Positions 1 to 7,647 of a stretch of 64,000 nucleotides of DNA are shown piece after piece. Source of the stretch: Pseudofrankia sp. DC12. Lineage in GTDB: Bacteria; Actinomycetota; Actinomycetes; Frankiales; Frankiaceae. Location: assembly GCF_000966285.1 (NCBI RefSeq), contig NZ_KQ031391.1, forward strand, positions 1,157,238 through 1,221,237. The letters run 5' to 3'. Positions within the stretch are counted from its first letter, which is position 1. Each line of letters starts with the position of its first letter. Below the pieces are notes generated by a model that ran no database searches, was not told the origin of the DNA, and worked only from the letters and a program-made list of their open reading frames with translations. The position numbers were made by a program, and so were the translations under genes.

Positions 1-243
1 CACCGCCGCCTCTGTCTCGCCGGCGCCGACCCGCAGCCAGCCGTCCGCCACGGTGATCCCCCGCAGCTCGGGCAGGCGCGCGATGTCGATCAGATGGTCG
101 AAGTAGGCGAGGCGCAGTGCCAGCATCGGCACCAGGCTCTGCCCCCCGGCCAGCAGCTTGGCCTCATCGCCGAGCTCGGCGAGCAGCGCGAGCGCCGCCT
201 CGACGGTCTCCGGTCGGTGGTACTCGAACGACGCCGACTTCAT
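1..243 (-). CDS. Molybdenum hydroxylase FAD-binding (medium) subunit, partial
   Basis: This is the N-terminal 81 residues of a CoxM/xanthine dehydrogenase medium-subunit protein; the rest lies beyond the window start. It begins MKSASFEYHRPETVE and carries the FAD-binding motif AGGQSLVPML at about residues 32-41, which is typical of the family. The subunit passes electrons from the iron-sulfur subunit to an acceptor through FAD. It starts 6 bases after the P450 stop codon, so it is probably co-transcribed with the P450, the CoxG gene and the large subunit upstream. The [2Fe-2S] small subunit would be expected next, outside the window. The substrate is unknown. Confidence 0.85.
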   Translation of the reverse strand, partial: MKSASFEYHRPETVEAALALLAELGDEAKLLAGGQSLVPMLALRLAYFDHLIDIARLPELRGITVADGWLRVGAGETEAAV

Positions 244-249
244 CGCGGC

Positions 250-1443
250 TCAGCCGATCGTGATGGGAAGGGATTCCCAGCCGCGGACGGTCGACGTCGA
301 GGCCAGGTTGGCGTTGTCCCAGTCCACGTCCCAGCTGGGGAAGTGCTTGAGGATCTCCTCCAGCGCGACGCGGCCCTCGAGGCGGGCCAGCGCGGCGCCG
401 AGGCAGTAGTGGCCGCCGAGCCCGAAGGTCAGCTGCTGGCCGATCTGGCGGCGGATGTCGAAGGTGTTCGGGTCTGGGTAACGAGCCGGGTCCCGGTTCG
501 CGGCCGCGACGATGAACAGGATCGCCGAGCCCGCGGGGACCTGCTGGCCGTGGAACTCGACGTCGGTGGTGACGTAGCGGCCGATCGCGTGGCCGGGCGG
601 CTCGAACCGAAGCAGCTCCTCGATCGCGTTCGGGATCAGCGACGGGTCGGCGACCAGCTCGGCGCGGGCCTCGGGGAACTTCGCGAGCGTCGAGGCCGCC
701 CAGCCGATCAGCCGGCCCGTGGTCTCGTTGCCGGCGCCGGCGACGACGGTGACGTAGGTCAGGATCTCGTCGCGGGTGAGCGTCCGGGTGACGCCGTTCT
801 CGTCGGTGAACTCGGCTCTCAGCAGCTCGGTCATCAGGTCGTCCGACGGGTGCTCGCGCCGCCAGTCGATGTACTCGCCGAAGACCTCGCCCGACAGCAG
901 GGCGCCCTCGGAGAGATCCATCTGTCCGCCCTCCTCGGTGCGCAGCCGGTCGTTGCCGGCGTCGCGGATCCCCGCCTGGTCGGCCTCGGGAATGCCGAGC
1001 AGCATGCCGATGACGCGCATCGGGAACTCGATGGTGAAGGCCTTGCACATGTCGAACTGTTTTTCGCCGATCAGCGGATCGAGCGTGCGGACACAGAAAT
1101 CACGGACCTGCTGTTCGATCCCGAGGACCCGCTTCGGCGTGAAGACGCGGGACAGCAGCTTGCGGTGGATGTCGTGGGCCGGCGGGTCCTCGAAGATGAG
1201 GGTCCCGGGCGGCAGCTCCATGCCGGACTTGATGATTTCCAGGATGCCGCCCTTGGCGGACGAGAAGGTCCGCCAGTCCGGCAGGCCGCGCTCGATGTCG
1301 GAGAACCGGGTGACCGCGAAGAAGTCGTACTGCTCGTTGTAGTAGAGCGGGACCTCCTCGCGAAGCCGCTGGAAGATCGGGTACGGGTCCGCGGCGTAGG
1401 CCTGGGTGTAGGGATCCCAGGCAATCGCGGTGTCGGTCGTCAC
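250..1443 (-). CDS. Cytochrome P450
   Basis: A 397-residue soluble bacterial P450 mono-oxygenase. The I-helix oxygen-activation motif AGAGNETT is at residues 235-242, the K-helix ExxR (EELLR) at 275-279, and the haem loop FGLGGHYCLG at 340-349 with Cys347 as the axial ligand. The GTG start is preceded by a GGAAGGG ribosome site. The gene sits inside a molybdenum-hydroxylase operon, between CoxG and the FAD subunit. That placement suggests both oxidations act on one substrate or pathway, perhaps a sterol, terpenoid or aromatic compound. No ferredoxin or reductase gene is visible nearby. The family call is certain; the substrate is not inferable. Confidence 0.95.
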   Translation of the reverse strand: MTTDTAIAWDPYTQAYAADPYPIFQRLREEVPLYYNEQYDFFAVTRFSDIERGLPDWRTFSSAKGGILEIIKSGMELPPGTLIFEDPPAHDIHRKLLSRVFTPKRVLGIEQQVRDFCVRTLDPLIGEKQFDMCKAFTIEFPMRVIGMLLGIPEADQAGIRDAGNDRLRTEEGGQMDLSEGALLSGEVFGEYIDWRREHPSDDLMTELLRAEFTDENGVTRTLTRDEILTYVTVVAGAGNETTGRLIGWAASTLAKFPEARAELVADPSLIPNAIEELLRFEPPGHAIGRYVTTDVEFHGQQVPAGSAILFIVAAANRDPARYPDPNTFDIRRQIGQQLTFGLGGHYCLGAALARLEGRVALEEILKHFPSWDVDWDNANLASTSTVRGWESLPITIG

Positions 1444-1532
1444 TGGTGTGCCCTTCCGCGGCTCGGTGCGACGATTTCTGGGTCGGTACGGCGGCGGGCG
1501 GGACCGCCGGAACAGGAACTGGGCGCTCCGTG

Positions 1533-2450
1533 TCAGCTCTGGGCCGCGCGGACCACCAGCCAGATGAGCAGGGCGAGCACCACCGCGCCGATCACCAGCA
1601 GCGCTCGCTTCAGCAGCGGCCAGGCGACGACGCCGAGCAGGTTGACCGGAGCGCCCGCCACCGGCGCGACGACGACCGGCCGCCCGGGCGGCGGCTGCGC
1701 CGCGCTCGAAGCCGCCTGGGCCGCGGGAGCCTGGACCGCCGCGACCGGGGCCACTGGAGCCGACGGGCCGGCCGGTTCGGGCGTGGCCTTCGCGCGGACC
1801 GGCGCCGCGGGGGGCGCCGCGACCGGCGCCGCGACGCTCGCCGGGGCGGCAGCCGGAACCTCGGGCGCCGAAGCCTCTTCCACGGGCCGAGCCGCGGCGG
1901 CCGTGGTCTCGGCACCAGGCGCTTCGGCGGCCGGCGCATCGACCACTGGCTGTTCGACGGCCGGAGTTTCAGCTACGGGCGCCTCAGCCACGGCCGGTGC
2001 GTCGCGCGAGGCCAGGATGTCGGCCTCCAGGTTGCGGACGAACTGCGCGACGAGCTTCGAGCTGACGTCAGCGAGCACACCCCGGCCGAACTGGGCCGCT
2101 TTCCCGGAGATGGTGAGATCGGTGGTCAGGTGAACGGCCGTCTCGTCACCGTCCGGGGTGAGGCCCATCGTGACGATGGCGCTCGCGTTGCCCTGGCCGC
2201 GGGATTCCTTGCCGTCCGCCTTGATGACAGCCCGGTGTGCCGTCGCGTCCTTCTCCTGGAAGGTGGCCTTGCCCTTGTACTGGGCGACGATCGGGCCTGC
2301 CTTCACCTTGACCGCGCCGTGGAAGTCCTCGCCGTCGACCGAGAGCAGCTGCGCACCGGGCATGCACGGCGCGATCCGTTCCGGATCGGTGAGCAGCTCC
2401 CACGCCCTCTCGACGGGCAGCGGAACTCGGAACTCGTTGACCAACTCCAC
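1533..2450 (-). CDS. coxG: CoxG-family SRPBCC protein with C-terminal membrane anchor
   Basis: A 305-residue protein starting MELVNEFRVPLPVERAWELL, the classic CoxG/SRPBCC beginning. The GTG start at 2450 was chosen because GGAGG lies about 10 bases upstream and homologues start here; an open frame extends further upstream but lacks family sequence. Residues 1-145 form the lipid-binding-like fold with the APCMPGA motif. A long Ala/Pro/Val-rich linker follows, and a hydrophobic helix near residues 275-300 should anchor it in the membrane. CoxG proteins accompany molybdenum CO dehydrogenases and have been implicated in membrane recruitment and quinone delivery. Here it would link the soluble hydroxylase to the respiratory chain, which is an inference. 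Confidence 0.85.
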   Translation of the reverse strand: MELVNEFRVPLPVERAWELLTDPERIAPCMPGAQLLSVDGEDFHGAVKVKAGPIVAQYKGKATFQEKDATAHRAVIKADGKESRGQGNASAIVTMGLTPDGDETAVHLTTDLTISGKAAQFGRGVLADVSSKLVAQFVRNLEADILASRDAPAVAEAPVAETPAVEQPVVDAPAAEAPGAETTAAAARPVEEASAPEVPAAAPASVAAPVAAPPAAPVRAKATPEPAGPSAPVAPVAAVQAPAAQAASSAAQPPPGRPVVVAPVAGAPVNLLGVVAWPLLKRALLVIGAVVLALLIWLVVRAAQS

Positions 2451-2635
2451 CTGCGTGCGTCCTCCACGTCGGCCCTGGGATCGGCTGCTGGGCGTTCGCT
2501 CAGGCCCGTTCGCCGCGCCCCTTCCGGCCCCGCCTCGCGGGGTGGCATCGAGCAGGAACCGGATGGGGGGACGAACCGGCTCACCCGAACAATAACCGGT
2601 TGTTGGGCGACTGCCCAGCACTCGGGCGGCCCGGC

Positions 2636-4948
2636 TTAGTGGCCAGCGGCGACGAGCAGCTCGACCAGGGCCGACGGGCTCAGGGGCAGCTCGGTGAGCT
2701 TCACGCCCAGAGGGGCCAAAGCGTCAGCCACCGCGTTGATGACGGCCGGCGGGGCGCCGATCGCGCCGCCCTCCCCGGCGCCCTTGTGACCGCCGGGACC
2801 CGGCGCCGGCGTCTCCATGTGGCCGTACTCGATGTGCGGGACCTCGGTGGACGTCGGCAGCAGGTAGTCGACGAAGGTGCTGGCCATCGGGTTGCCGTCG
2901 TCGTCGTAGACCATGTGCTCCAGCAGGGCGCCGCCAATCCCCTGGACGGTGCCGCCGGCGATCTGGCCCTCGACCACATTCGGATTGATCATCGGGCCGA
3001 CGTCCTCGCCGACCACGTAGCGCAGCAGCGTCACCTTGCCGGTGGCGATATCCACCTCGCAGGTGCAGACATGGGTCGCGTTCGACCACAGCATCGGCGC
3101 CTTCTGGGTATGGGTGGCCGTCGCCGCCACGCCGTCCGGCGACGCGAGCTCGCCGTAGCTGACCGAGGCCGCACCGGCGCTCGCGCGGCCGTCGCCCAGG
3201 GTCACGGCGTCCTCGGGGACGCCGAGCCGCTCGGCGGCGAGCGCCGTCAGCTTCGCCCGTAGCACCCTTGCCGTCTCGGCGACCGCTCCGGCCATCGCGG
3301 AGCCGCTGCGGCTACCGGCCGTGCCCGCGCCGAACGGGGTCACCGCCGTGTCGCCCTGGATGGTCACGACCTGGTCGAAGTCGACCCCGAGCGCGTCGGC
3401 GGTCAGCTGGATGACGGTCGTCTCCAGGCTGTTGCCGGCCGCTCCGCCGTTGACGATGACCGTCACGAGGCCGGTCGGGCCGATCCGGATCACCGCTCCC
3501 TCGGACGCGTAGTACGGCTGGCCGGTCGCGGTCGGCTCGATGTACGTGCCCGTGCCGACCCCCAGGTAGCGGCCCTGCTCGCGGGCGGCGGCCTGCTCCG
3601 CCCGGAAGGCGTCGTAGTCGAGGATCTTCAGGGCGAGCTCGAAGGTCTCCAGCGGAGACGAGTGGTCATAGGGCGGCATGCCGGCCGGGTTCGGGTACGG
3701 CTGGTCGTCGCGGCCGATCAGGTTGCGGCGGCGCAGCTCGACCGGGTCGAGCCCCATGTCGCGCGCGGCGATGTCCAGCAGCACCTCGCGGGCGACCGAC
3801 TCGAACTGCCACGGGCCGCGGTAGGCGGTGCGCCCGGCGGTGTTCGAGAAGACCGTGGAGGTCGTCCAGGCGGCCAGCGGCACCTTGTACGGCCCCGGGT
3901 AGAGCAGCCCGACCGCCCCGGACGCGCCGACCGGCCACGGTGTCGGGTAGGCGCCGCAGTCCTGGACGTGTTCGAGGCTCACGGCCGTGATGGCGGCGTC
4001 GGCGGCGAAGGCGATCCGGGCCCGGCCGTGCTCGTGGCGGGCCTGGCCGGCGGCCATCAGGTTCTCCCGGCGGTCCTCGACCCACTTCACCGGCGCCGGG
4101 ACCTTGCGCGCCACCAGCAGGAGGCACATGTCCTCGCGCATCGGGACGACCTTCTGGCCGAAGCCGCCACCGGTGTCCCGCATGATCACCCGTACCCGGT
4201 CCGGGTCGAGGCCGAGCAGGCGGGCACCGAACGCACGCACCTCGTGCGGTGTCTGGGTGGCGGCCCAGACCGTCAGCTCGCCGTCGTCCGGGCCGCCGGG
4301 ACCGGGCGCCCACTCGACGACGAGGCCGCGGGTCTCCATCGGGACCGCCTGGTACGCCTGCTGGTAGAAGGTCTCGTCCGCGACGTACGCGGCGGCGGCG
4401 AAGGCTGGCTCGACCACCGCCAGCGGTGGGCCGGCGAGCCCGCCCGCGACGTTGTCCGGGAAGGCCGCGTGCACCACGGCGTCCGAGCCGCGGGCCTGGC
4501 GGTAGTCGGCGGCGGCCGGCAGGGGCTCGTAGTCGACGTCGACCAGCTCGACCGCGTCCTCGGCGACGTACCGGCTCTCGGCGATGACCAGCGCGACCGG
4601 GTCACCTACGAACCGGACCTCTTCGACGGCCAGCGGCGGGCGCGGCGTGTCCGGGACCTTCGGGCCGTACGAGCTGTACCAGGCCGCGTGCACCTCGTGG
4701 TTGAGGTCGGCCGCCGTGAAGACGGCGTGAACCCCCGGCAGGTCGAGCGCCGCCGAGACATCGATGCTGTTGATAGTCGCCCGGGCGAACGGGCTGCGCA
4801 CGAAGCAGGCGTGCAGCATTCCCGGCCGCTGGATGTCGTCCACGAACGTGCCGTGCCCGGTGAGCAGCCGAGCGTCCTCGACTCGGCGCACCCTGCGGCC
4901 GGCGAAGGGGGGCTGCGTCACGGCCGGAGCCGTCACGGTGTCGGTCAT
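2636..4948 (-). CDS. Molybdenum hydroxylase large (molybdopterin-binding) subunit, not a canonical CO dehydrogenase
   Basis: A 770-residue xanthine oxidase-family catalytic subunit. An a/b hammerhead domain spans about residues 20-130, followed by the two molybdopterin-binding halves. The catalytic glutamate is in GAGEGGAIGAPPA near residue 722, and GGGFGQK near residue 260 is the usual Mo-pterin glycine loop. The active-site loop near residue 375 reads AYRGPW. It is neither the form I CoxL loop AYRCSFR nor the form II loop AYRGAGR, so CO oxidation is unlikely. The start at 4948 has AGGAG upstream; an open frame extends further but looks non-coding. It heads an operon with CoxG, P450 and the FAD subunit. 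The substrate is probably a heterocycle, aldehyde or terpenoid. Confidence 0.88.
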   Translation of the reverse strand: MTDTVTAPAVTQPPFAGRRVRRVEDARLLTGHGTFVDDIQRPGMLHACFVRSPFARATINSIDVSAALDLPGVHAVFTAADLNHEVHAAWYSSYGPKVPDTPRPPLAVEEVRFVGDPVALVIAESRYVAEDAVELVDVDYEPLPAAADYRQARGSDAVVHAAFPDNVAGGLAGPPLAVVEPAFAAAAYVADETFYQQAYQAVPMETRGLVVEWAPGPGGPDDGELTVWAATQTPHEVRAFGARLLGLDPDRVRVIMRDTGGGFGQKVVPMREDMCLLLVARKVPAPVKWVEDRRENLMAAGQARHEHGRARIAFAADAAITAVSLEHVQDCGAYPTPWPVGASGAVGLLYPGPYKVPLAAWTTSTVFSNTAGRTAYRGPWQFESVAREVLLDIAARDMGLDPVELRRRNLIGRDDQPYPNPAGMPPYDHSSPLETFELALKILDYDAFRAEQAAAREQGRYLGVGTGTYIEPTATGQPYYASEGAVIRIGPTGLVTVIVNGGAAGNSLETTVIQLTADALGVDFDQVVTIQGDTAVTPFGAGTAGSRSGSAMAGAVAETARVLRAKLTALAAERLGVPEDAVTLGDGRASAGAASVSYGELASPDGVAATATHTQKAPMLWSNATHVCTCEVDIATGKVTLLRYVVGEDVGPMINPNVVEGQIAGGTVQGIGGALLEHMVYDDDGNPMASTFVDYLLPTSTEVPHIEYGHMETPAPGPGGHKGAGEGGAIGAPPAVINAVADALAPLGVKLTELPLSPSALVELLVAAGH

Positions 4949-5117
4949 GTGTCTCGCTCCTCGCGACGCGTGCTGCCAGGTGGCCTGGCCGTCGGGTGGC
5001 GCTGGCCGTCGAGCTGGCCCTGAGTGCTGAGCTGGAGGGTGCCGAGGTGGACCTGGGTACTGCCCGTGGCGCCGAGCCGGTGCTGAGCGCCCGCCCAATC
5101 GCTATGCTGGGCCGATG

Positions 5118-5145
5118 CCTATCCTCCGGCCGCCCTGTCCGTCAA
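5118..5145 (-). promoter_or_regulatory. Candidate sigma-70-like promoter for the Mo-hydroxylase operon
   Basis: On the minus strand TTGACG (5145-5140) and GATAGG (5123-5118) are separated by 16 bases, about 170 bases upstream of the large-subunit start and 65 bases from the divergent TetR gene. The -35 match is good and the -10 match is weak. This is a pattern match only. Confidence 0.3.
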
Positions 5146-5209: not shown

Positions 5210-5821
5210 ATGACGACTCCCCGGCGGATGGGCGCAGCCGACTCGAAGACCCGGGTCACGCTGCTCGACGTCACCGCCTCGATCATGATCGAGGAAGGCT
5301 ACGCGGCCGCGACCTCGCGGCGGGTCGCCGCCAGGGCTGGAGTGAAGCCCGCCCTTGTCCATTACTACTTCCGTACCATGGACGACCTTTTCCTGGCACT
5401 GTTCCGGAAGGGCGCCGAGGCGAACCTGAAGCGCTACGAGCAGGCGCTCGCCGCCGCGAACCCCGTGCGGGCGCTGTGGGAGCTGGCCAGCGAACCCGAG
5501 GGCAACGTCCTGCTGTCCGAGTTCCAGGCGCTGGCCAACCACCGCAAGGCCATTCGCACCGAGATCGCGGACTACGCCGAACGGTTCCGCGCCCTGCAGG
5601 TCAAGGCGCTGACGGACCTGCTGGCCGGCGGCACCGGCGCGGGCCTGGCGGGGATCTCGCCGCCGGTGCTCACGGTCCTCATGACCGGCGTCGGCCGCAT
5701 CCTCATCTCCGAGGACGTCCTCGGCGTCGCCACCGGCCACGAGGAGACGCTGGCTCTCATCGAGGAGTACCTCAGCGCGTTCGACGCTCCCCCGAACGCT
5801 GACCAGGAAGCCCCTTCCTGA
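5210..5821 (+). CDS. TetR/AcrR-family transcriptional regulator
   Basis: A 203-residue one-component regulator. Residues 15-62 form the TetR helix-turn-helix (AATSRRVAARAGVKPALVHYYF), followed by an all-helical ligand domain of normal length. A second possible start, M7, is preceded by a similar context, so the first six residues are uncertain. The gene is transcribed away from the Mo-hydroxylase/P450 operon across a 261-base gap. That is the usual arrangement for a repressor controlling both itself and its divergent neighbour, so it is the best candidate regulator of that operon. No clear operator was identified, and the ligand is unknown. Confidence 0.9.
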   Translation: MTTPRRMGAADSKTRVTLLDVTASIMIEEGYAAATSRRVAARAGVKPALVHYYFRTMDDLFLALFRKGAEANLKRYEQALAAANPVRALWELASEPEGNVLLSEFQALANHRKAIRTEIADYAERFRALQVKALTDLLAGGTGAGLAGISPPVLTVLMTGVGRILISEDVLGVATGHEETLALIEEYLSAFDAPPNADQEAPS

Positions 5822-5979
5822 CCTCGCCCGCACGGTCTGAGCGTCGAGCCAGGGCGAGCCCTTGTGGCGGAGCTGCGGTCGGTCGATGAGGTCGCCGATG
5901 AGCGCTTGACAACGTCATAGAGACACTCCCCAACCTGGTTGCGTTCCGTTCAAGGGCGCGAACTCGGTTGCGTTTCGCT

Positions 5980-6687
5980 TTAGGGCGGGTTCTGGTCGCT
6001 GTCCGCGGTGGGCTCGCTGGCGGGGGGTGGGCGGCGGCCGGCGCGGATGGCGTCGGCGAGGACGCCGATGGCCCAGGTGATTGCTCTGGTCGCCTGCTGG
6101 CCGTCCAGTGACCAGGCGCTTACCAGCCGCTGGTAGGAGGGCACGCTCCAGAGCAGGTCGAGCATGGCGGCGGCCATGCGGCCTTCCTCGTCGGTCCAGT
6201 CGGCCGTCGGCGCGGCGACCGCGTCGACCATGGCCTGCCGCCGGCGCATCTCCTCGGCCAGCAGCGTCGGCCCGACCGGCTCCGTCACGTCCCATCGCAT
6301 GACCGCGTACGACGGCAGCATCGCGAAGAGTCGCGCGGTGACCACGCCGATCTTGTCCAGACTCAGATGGTCGTAGCTGATCCCGGACTCCTCGCCCAAC
6401 CGACGCATGATCGCGTCGTGCAGCTCCCGCTCGGTGGCGAAGTACCGGTAGACGGTCCGCTCCCCCACGCCGGCCCGCTCGGCGACGGCGCGGAACGTCA
6501 GGCCGCGCCAGTCCCAGGTCGTGAACTCGTGCACCAGCTCGGAGCCGGCGGTGAGGATCCGTTCCCGCGTCTGGGCGGCCTGCTGGCGCCGCAGCGGGCT
6601 GTCGTAGCGACGGCGACCGGCGGTCTCGTCACCGCCGGACCCGGCCCGGTCGCCGGCGCCACGCTCGTTCACTGCCTCGGTCGCCAT
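5980..6687 (-). CDS. TetR-family transcriptional regulator
   Basis: A 235-residue TetR regulator with an Arg-rich N-terminal tail and the DNA-binding helix-turn-helix GLTFRAVAERAGVGERTVYRYF at about residues 63-84. The start at 6687 was chosen over one 66 bases upstream because AAGGAGG lies 11 bases before it. The upstream region contains the palindrome TGCCATTCATGGCA, a possible autoregulatory operator. The divergent neighbour is a broken gene, so its original target may be lost. The ligand is unknown. Confidence 0.88.
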   Translation of the reverse strand: MATEAVNERGAGDRAGSGGDETAGRRRYDSPLRRQQAAQTRERILTAGSELVHEFTTWDWRGLTFRAVAERAGVGERTVYRYFATERELHDAIMRRLGEESGISYDHLSLDKIGVVTARLFAMLPSYAVMRWDVTEPVGPTLLAEEMRRRQAMVDAVAAPTADWTDEEGRMAAAMLDLLWSVPSYQRLVSAWSLDGQQATRAITWAIGVLADAIRAGRRPPPASEPTADSDQNPP

Positions 6688-6724
6688 GGTCGGGTTCGCC
6701 TCCTTGGCGGTGGTTGCGGCGCGA

Positions 6725-6738
6725 TGCCATTCATGGCA
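6725..6738. promoter_or_regulatory. Palindrome upstream of the TetR gene, possible operator
   Basis: TGCCA-TTCA-TGGCA is a perfect 5-bp inverted repeat 38 bases upstream of the TetR start at 6687, in the divergent region with the remnant at 6913. Position and symmetry fit a TetR autoregulatory site, but arms this short can occur by chance. Confidence 0.3.
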
Positions 6739-6912
6739 CCCTACTGTCACCAAATCTGCCGGCTGCTCGTCGCGGCCGGTCCTCCCATCGTCCCGAACCC
6801 GCCGCTGTCTGGCACCTGCCCCACCCGGTGCCGACGACGCTCACGGGATCCGCCTCCCCGCGTGGGTCCCGATCGTGCCGGCTGACGCTGCCGGCGTGAA
6901 GGGAGCCACCAC

Positions 6913-7647
6913 ATGCGATCAGCCCAGGGTCTGATCGACGAGGCCCGGTCCGCGACCGGCCTCGACGACTTCGGAGGCGACAGCTTCCGGGAGGGCCTGG
7001 AGCTCGATGGTGAACCTGCAGGTCGAGGTCCTCACCACGATGGCCGTCCTGCCGTGGGAGCAGGGCGCGCTGCGCGCCGACGCGGCCGACCTGCTCACAC
7101 CAACACCTCCGACGGCGACATGATGGGCCACGGCCCGCGCAGCGAGCAGCTGTGCACCGCCCAGGCCGTCGTTCGGGTGCCCGGCGAGGAGAAGACCTTC
7201 ACCGGCAGCGGCCTGCGGATCAAGCGGCAGGGCGTCCGGAACCTGGACGAGTTCCGCGGCCACGCCTGGCAGTCCGCGGTGTTCCCCAGCGGCAGGGGCT
7301 TCGGCTTCATCACGCACCCGCCGCACCCCGACGGTCGTCCTGTATCCAACGAGGGCTACCTGTTTCTCGGCGAGGGGAAGCTCATCCCGGCCCGCGAAGT
7401 CGAGGCTCCCTGGCCGCGCCGGTTGGTACCGTCGGGCGACCCAGTCCCCGTCGTGTTCGAGTCCGGGCTCGGCATCACCGGCATCGAAGGCACCACCGTG
7501 AACACCACGCACGACACCGTCCACCGGCCGGAGATGCCGAACTTCCCTGTGTTGTTCCAGGGCGGGTGCCGGTACGGCTGGGACGGAGAGGAGACGTACG
7601 ACATGCTCGAACGGTCCACGGTGCGGGATCTGATCGAATGGGCGTGA
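6913..7647 (+). pseudogene. Fused remnant: sulfotransferase N-terminus joined to a DUF7064-like C-terminus
   Basis: The open frame starts at an ATG with a good site (GGGAG) and encodes about 32 residues resembling the start of actinobacterial sulfotransferases (LIDEARSATGLDDFGGDSF). After LELD the frame turns into low-quality Arg/Gly-rich sequence. From about residue 72 it becomes the conserved C-terminal part of a DUF7064-like protein ([38 protein letters not shown]). Between them, a different frame (about 7010-7122) reads like coding sequence of a third gene. The 244-residue product would be a chimera made by deletions. It overlaps the cysD start, so its transcript could still drive cysD. 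Family names are from recall. Confidence 0.7.

Follow-up and report, generated by a model that had tools for sequence, protein, structure and literature searches.

What does a molybdenum (Mo) hydroxylase do when its active-site loop reads AYRGPW and its operon also encodes a cytochrome P450? This question is raised by the left end of a 64,000-nucleotide stretch of the soil actinobacterium Pseudofrankia sp. DC12 (the window, meaning that whole stretch), the source genome of which (6.88 Mb, single contig) has Frankia sp. AgB1.9, F. nepalensis, and Pseudofrankia sp. BMG5.36 as same-genus relatives. On the minus strand, the operon runs large subunit (L), CoxG-like protein, P450, FAD subunit (M), and 2Fe-2S subunit (S), and the gene for a TetR-type regulator, TetR1, is divergent (Table 1). 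A preliminary description of the window had given the order L, CoxG, P450, M, the AYRGPW loop, and a TetR gene at position 5210; domain matches bear out the order, and both the loop and the regulator gene are present. Judged by its sequence, L belongs to an undescribed actinobacterial Mo hydroxylase subfamily that is marked by AYRGPW and is not a carbon monoxide dehydrogenase (CODH). This clade tracks mycofactocin (MFT). The proposal developed here, which is held to be probable by a modest measure, is that the operon encodes a substrate-induced module for oxidation in actinobacteria that produce MFT, in which the AYRGPW-type L/M/S enzyme, tethered by CoxG and here co-transcribed with the P450 under TetR control, would help to degrade or detoxify a single class of organic compounds.

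Assignment of L to the Mo hydroxylase family is based on its Ald_Xan_dh_C, MoCoBD_1, and MoCoBD_2 domains and on its FAD and 2Fe-2S partner subunits; in an alignment, L also has the catalytic Glu (GxGE) and the GGGFGQK region of the xanthine oxidase family. An XdhC gene with an adjacent MobA-like transferase gene is present elsewhere in the genome, as expected for this family, and L/M/S are probably the three subunits of a molybdopterin cytosine dinucleotide-type enzyme that is matured by an XdhC/MocA pair encoded elsewhere. The loop was surveyed in 97 loci (77 mycobacterial and 20 Frankiaceae), all of which carry [AP]YRGPW: AYRGPW in 96 and PYRGPW in one (L118). Because the L orthologues are 62-95% identical across Frankiaceae and Mycobacteriaceae and the loop is kept in 97 of 97 loci, a chance origin of the loop is excluded. 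AYRGPW is also found in four copies from Streptomyces-like genomes (the labels Streptomyces-like, Parafrankia-like, and Frankia stand for the inferred groups g22, g6, and g2, the last including genome G006), in genomes G236 and G060, and in a sister lineage of 45% identity (L128 and L129, genomes G018 and G020). In this lineage, His replaces Lys before GVGEGG, and CoxG, M, S, and a CaiB-type gene lie close by. In the Pseudofrankia genome G029 (L119, G029:C1:3327000-3346900), a second AYRGPW operon, with an L of 68% identity, has a CaiB-type CoA transferase and an amidohydrolase in its vicinity. No clade member was found among plasmid records, where the best match is 40%, and no occurrence of the string AYRGPW was found among the open-access papers listed for the motif, an absence that is weak evidence.

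Overall homology and the presence of CoxG would fit an aerobic CODH of a form II-like type, and CoxL of M. smegmatis is the top solved chain for L. However, L reaches only 438.6 bits (cut-off 991.15) and 493.5 bits (cut-off 950) with the NCBIfam CODH models, about half of the cut-offs, and its top NCBIfam model, glyceraldehyde dehydrogenase alpha, gives 523 bits (cut-off 790). The form I motif is AYXCSFR (PMC13203968), not always AYRCSFR as the preliminary description had it, and AYRGPW lacks the Cys of this motif, so that a Mo-Cu site would have no Cys ligand. The form II loop is AYRGAGR, as the preliminary description states, but this loop occurs in other Mo hydroxylases too. L has neither this loop nor the form II gene order, SLM, nor is the operon ordered MSL; in an alignment, AYRGPWQ has one residue fewer than loops of the AYRGxGR type. 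In a maximum-likelihood tree, a comparison that the preliminary description had called for, the clade stands apart from CODH and from nicotine-pathway enzymes with core support of 100/100; long-branch warnings for the outgroups make the sister group unsure. With motif, score, gene order, and tree all against it, CODH of form I or II was rejected, and a form II-like CO-oxidizing enzyme is considered extremely improbable.

The resemblance to form I CODH (CoxMSL, Afipia carboxidovorans pHCG3; M. smegmatis 8uem) lies in the L/M/S architecture, CoxG, and XdhC-type maturation, whereas the absence of AYXCSFR, and hence of the Cu-ligand Cys, the halved curated score, the order L-CoxG-P450-M-S, and the separate branch set the DC12 system apart. 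Quinoline 2-oxidoreductase (1t3q), NdhC (nicotine dehydrogenase), and KdhC also represent heterotrimeric catabolic Mo hydroxylases, and the score of L against 1t3q is similar to that against CODH. Their loops, in contrast, are AYRGVG, AFRGVG, and AYRAPG, and NdhC and KdhC fall on branches separate from that of L.

The distribution of the clade was compared with that of MftC, counted when over its cut-off (265 bits), in a sample of 395 Actinomycetes genomes. L is present in 37 and MftC in 107 of these genomes, and 36 of the 37 have both. Since 19 of the L-positive genomes are mycobacteria and much of this co-occurrence is shared ancestry, one genus in which MFT is rare was tested. Among 325 Streptomyces-like genomes, 27 have MftC and four have L; all four lie within the 27 (hypergeometric p 3.8e-5), and the clade is missing from the 298 MFT-negative genomes. 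In three of these four, L and MftC share a contig and are 8-27 kb apart. The linkage is closest in the Parafrankia-like genomes, in which mftB, mftC (655 bits), mftD, mftE, mftF, and an MFT-coupled short-chain dehydrogenase/reductase (SDR) gene adjoin L/M/S/CoxG; these neighborhoods have two arrangements, which correspond to two branches in the tree of L. The window genome itself carries mftA (encoding a peptide that ends IDGMCGVY), mftB, mftC, and an MftF-like gene at ~1.93 Mb. The SDRs beside the Pseudofrankia operon received no MFT-specific NCBIfam assignment (TIGR03971 171-174 bits, cut-off 300).

The MFT-coupled oxidoreductases described so far are SDRs, zinc- and iron-dependent alcohol dehydrogenases, and GMC flavoproteins (PMC3023750, PMC11778925). 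Like such proteins (TIGR03971, TIGR04504, MftG), the L clade is restricted to MFT genomes, with the exception of G034, and is sometimes clustered with mft; unlike them, L is a Mo hydroxylase. The string "molybd" is absent from the text of both papers, and no paper that connects mycofactocin to a Mo hydroxylase was found in the open-access literature, where absence is weak evidence. It is tentatively suggested, as a possibility that falls short of probable, that the AYRGPW clade is the first Mo enzyme of the MFT system: a membrane-tethered enzyme whose function would need MFT, either as a fixed partner that oxidizes the products of MFT-coupled dehydrogenases or through electron exchange with the cofactor, with CoxG leading to menaquinone.

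In CODH systems, CoxG passes electrons to the quinone pool (PMC13240472). By analogy, a similar route may operate here where CoxG is present. The membrane link through CoxG that was put forward in the preliminary description gains from a C-terminal hydrophobic helix, but in roughly half of the mycobacterial loci CoxG is neither in the operon nor near it, and the CoxG route is thus not universal. In slow-growing mycobacteria (L044, L057, L069, L094, and similar loci), the operon lacks CoxG and is flanked on one side by an amino-acid permease with a MobA-like gene and on the other by a dnaK-grpE-dnaJ-like set.

A more direct role for the cofactor can also be considered, in which the Mo enzyme would be a part of the MFT redox system and would take electrons from reduced mycofactocin or an MFT-bound intermediate through CoxG to menaquinone, parallel to or replacing MftG. 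The co-occurrence, the adjacency to mft in Parafrankia-like genomes, the CoxG anchor, and the part of CoxG in CODH electron transfer are in keeping with this, as is the finding that a GMC protein exceeds the curated MftG cut-off in only two of 35 family genomes, neither of them L-positive. However, GMC matches below this cut-off exist in L-positive genomes, many MFT-positive genomes lack L, and oxidation of a carbinol is not the usual reaction of Mo hydroxylases, which normally carry out hydroxylation with water. In addition, mycobacteria have both MftG and the AYRGPW clade. This direct role is judged to be decidedly unlikely.

The P450 of the window has the haem-Cys loop FGLGGHYCLG (residue 340) and the AGxxT-type I-helix motif AGAGNETT (residue 235). 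In seven of the eight Pseudofrankia genomes, its gene occupies the position between CoxG and M, with a gap of 6 bases to M in the window; the copy in G030 is divided over more than one contig. Other orders are seen elsewhere: L-M-S-CoxG-SDR-P450-ferredoxin in G205 and G532, mftCDEF-77 aa-P450-SDR-CoxG-S-M-L in G518 (last six on the minus strand), and a P450 divergent from L in G236, which is of another genus. The P450s beside the Mo operon in these genomes (G205, G532, and G518 are Streptomyces-like) are 64-72% identical to the window P450, and the remaining P450s near L are at most 34% identical. Genome G413 has the Mo operon without this P450. In some mycobacteria, P450s are encoded ~2 kb upstream of L, but these were set aside as a different family (~32% identical). 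The P450 group is large and paralogous, being found in 51 of the 395 genomes in several copies each, and 50 of these genomes are MFT-positive; this restriction of the whole group may reflect a broader association between P450s and mycofactocin.

A shared regulatory site also joins the two enzymes. TetR1 is 64-85% identical in Pseudofrankia and ~50-53% identical beside L in Streptomyces-like genomes. The predicted operator lies directly after the TTGACG-18-TAGGCA pair in the region between tetR1 and L, and the Streptomyces-like genomes have the same layout with different arms (CGTTCAGCACCTAGGTTGAACACTCGTTCAGCAC) in surrounding DNA that is not conserved. Within 3.08 Mb of loci, the symmetric pattern YYCAGCAN6TTGRR is found only in the TetR1|L regions of both genera (chance estimate ~1.5 sites), and the operator is the sole site with one mismatch or fewer in the whole window genome. 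A wider TetR1 regulon was not found in this genome, where nine other sites occur at two mismatches, compared with 22 in a reversed control. Frankia G006 has no L of the clade; there, the genes for a relative of TetR1 (66%) and for an 82% identical P450 diverge, and the gap between them holds a near-identical site, TCAGCATAGCGATTGGGCGAACGCTCAGCAC. This site before a P450 alone is the best evidence that the P450 and the Mo enzyme may answer to the same signal. In G236, the region between L and its divergent P450 (L172:10867-11581) carries inverted TGCTGAGC/GCTCAGCA half-sites in two sets, of which the first lies towards L and the second immediately precedes the P450.

The neighboring genes look like a catabolic set for an organic compound, with CoA chemistry as the final stage. 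In the DC12 genome, the same strand continues beyond S with genes for a Rieske oxygenase alpha subunit, a 108-aa protein, CMD, TauD, and an SDR remnant. Between mft and L, G205 encodes a CoA ligase, a thiolase, several acyl-CoA dehydrogenases, an enoyl-CoA hydratase, and a thioesterase, together with a luciferase-type monooxygenase, CMD (59%), TauD (58%), and a branched-chain-type ABC importer. Three mycobacteria have a P450 of the group (59-60%) with a Rieske relative (63-65%), an adjoining 107-108-aa gene, and CMD, in clusters that also hold an amidohydrolase, acyl-CoA dehydrogenases, SDRs, and a CaiB-type CoA transferase. CMD, the P450, and either TauD or the Rieske protein thus recur in differing orders. 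The L enzyme might be simply the aldehyde or heterocycle hydroxylase of a shared catabolic island, with L, P450, and mft traveling together in service of the same pathways and the Mo enzyme making no direct contact with MFT. The catabolic genes around L in G205, the family aldehyde dehydrogenase as best NCBIfam model, and the loose linkage in Pseudofrankia and mycobacteria agree with such an island, but co-travel alone fails to explain the lack of the clade in nearly all sampled MFT-negative actinobacteria, including the 298 Streptomyces-like genomes, and this explanation is regarded as unlikely.

The substrate-induced module is drawn from the sequences of the subunits, anchor, and operator and from co-occurrence and linkage, from which we infer the order of steps, the type of substrate, and the electron route. 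An inducer would free TetR1 from the predicted operator, and the P450 would hydroxylate the substrate. MFT-coupled alcohol dehydrogenases could then oxidize the resulting alcohol, and the Mo enzyme would use water to hydroxylate the resulting aldehyde, ketone, or heterocycle. Its electrons would pass from 2Fe-2S to FAD to menaquinone held by CoxG, and the product would enter CoA-dependent degradation.

Several observations weigh against this module. Most MFT-positive genomes lack L, and the operon is far from mft in Pseudofrankia (~770 kb here) and in mycobacteria. MftC was not found in the L-positive genome G034, a draft that is 93% complete in 850 contigs. The four Streptomyces-like L copies form one clade, so that there are fewer events than genomes and one or a few transfers could suffice. 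Binding of TetR1 to the operator is a prediction from sequence. The P450 group is itself found mainly in MFT-positive genomes, and part of the association of the P450 is thus indirect. As for the P450 itself, it is not in the position between CoxG and M in any of the 77 mycobacterial loci, in the Parafrankia-like genomes, or in Pseudofrankia BMG5.36, which implies that the Mo enzyme works without it. A constant P450 partner was therefore rejected, and the P450 is a recurrent, not an obligatory, partner of the Mo enzyme. The vacant position in the 77 loci and BMG5.36 could also mean that the P450 entered the operon by chance and has no functional tie to it. In two further genera, however, relatives of 64-72% identity adjoin this operon in varying gene orders, and an operator is common to L and P450, including that before the P450 alone in G006; this shared operator and independent linkage disfavor a chance insertion, which is viewed as improbable.

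The preliminary description had proposed a two-step system in which the Mo enzyme and the P450 hydroxylate a single substrate. This reading is borne out in part, by the P450 linkage in other genera and the shared operator, and such paired hydroxylations are conceivable. The check suggested there, whether P450 and CoxG always adjoin in AYRGPW homologues, gave a negative answer for both in mycobacteria, and in a literal sense the P450 is lacking from nearly all related operons, the outcome named there as refuting. That description missed the MFT link, the operator, and the broader set of genes, none of which the window could reveal.

Table 1 Positions of the operon features in the window (L003 coordinates refer to the surrounding locus)
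Feature	Position	Strand	Basis or detail
L, molybdopterin-binding large subunit, xanthine oxidase family, 770 aa	2636..4948	-	PF01315, PF02738, PF20256
AYRGPW active-site loop, L residues 375-380	3809..3826	-	
Codon of conserved catalytic-type Glu (KGAGEGG, L residue 726)	2771..2773	-	alignment
CoxG-like protein, 305 aa, Pro/Ala-rich linker	1533..2450	-	PF06240, E=5.8e-21
CoxG C-terminal hydrophobic helix LLVIGAVVLALLIWLVVRA, probable membrane anchor	1545..1601	-	mean hydropathy 2.76, 19 residues
Cytochrome P450, 397 aa	250..1443	-	PF00067
M (FAD subunit), first 81 codons, runs off window edge	1..243	-	full M 302 aa, L003:13573-14481, PF00941/PF03450
S (2Fe-2S subunit), 159 aa	L003:13101-13580, just outside window, after M	-	
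TetR1, divergent predicted repressor	5210..5821 (start maybe 5228)	+	PF00440
TetR-type operator (predicted), GGCCCAGCATAGCGATTGGGCG + adjoining half-site GCGCTCAGCACC	5079..5113	-	
Promoter-like TTGACG - 18 - TAGGCA for L, ends at operator	5116..5145	-	TTGAC kept in most of 11 aligned intergenic regions

M and S overlap by 8 bases. Relative to AgB1.9 (L035), the Mo/P450 operon is intact although its flanks are eroded. The SDR gene 3' of tauD (L003:8821-9351, left of the window) is truncated to residues 1-96 of a 263-aa AgB1.9 relative, with 92% identity. Window positions 5822-7647 lack three genes that AgB1.9 has between TetR1 and TetR2, namely those for an SDR and an enoyl-CoA hydratase and a GntR-like gene, and two further AgB1.9 genes (394 and 345 aa there) persist only as fragments before cysD.

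Genes of the AYRGPW clade occur commonly in Frankiaceae and non-tuberculous mycobacteria. Their homology makes it easy to mistake them for CODH genes, a misannotation that could inflate counts of CO oxidizers. The single conserved operator offers a direct route to the inducer and hence to the substrate. If the tie to mycofactocin is true, a Mo enzyme would widen a redox system so far known for SDR, alcohol dehydrogenase, and GMC partners.

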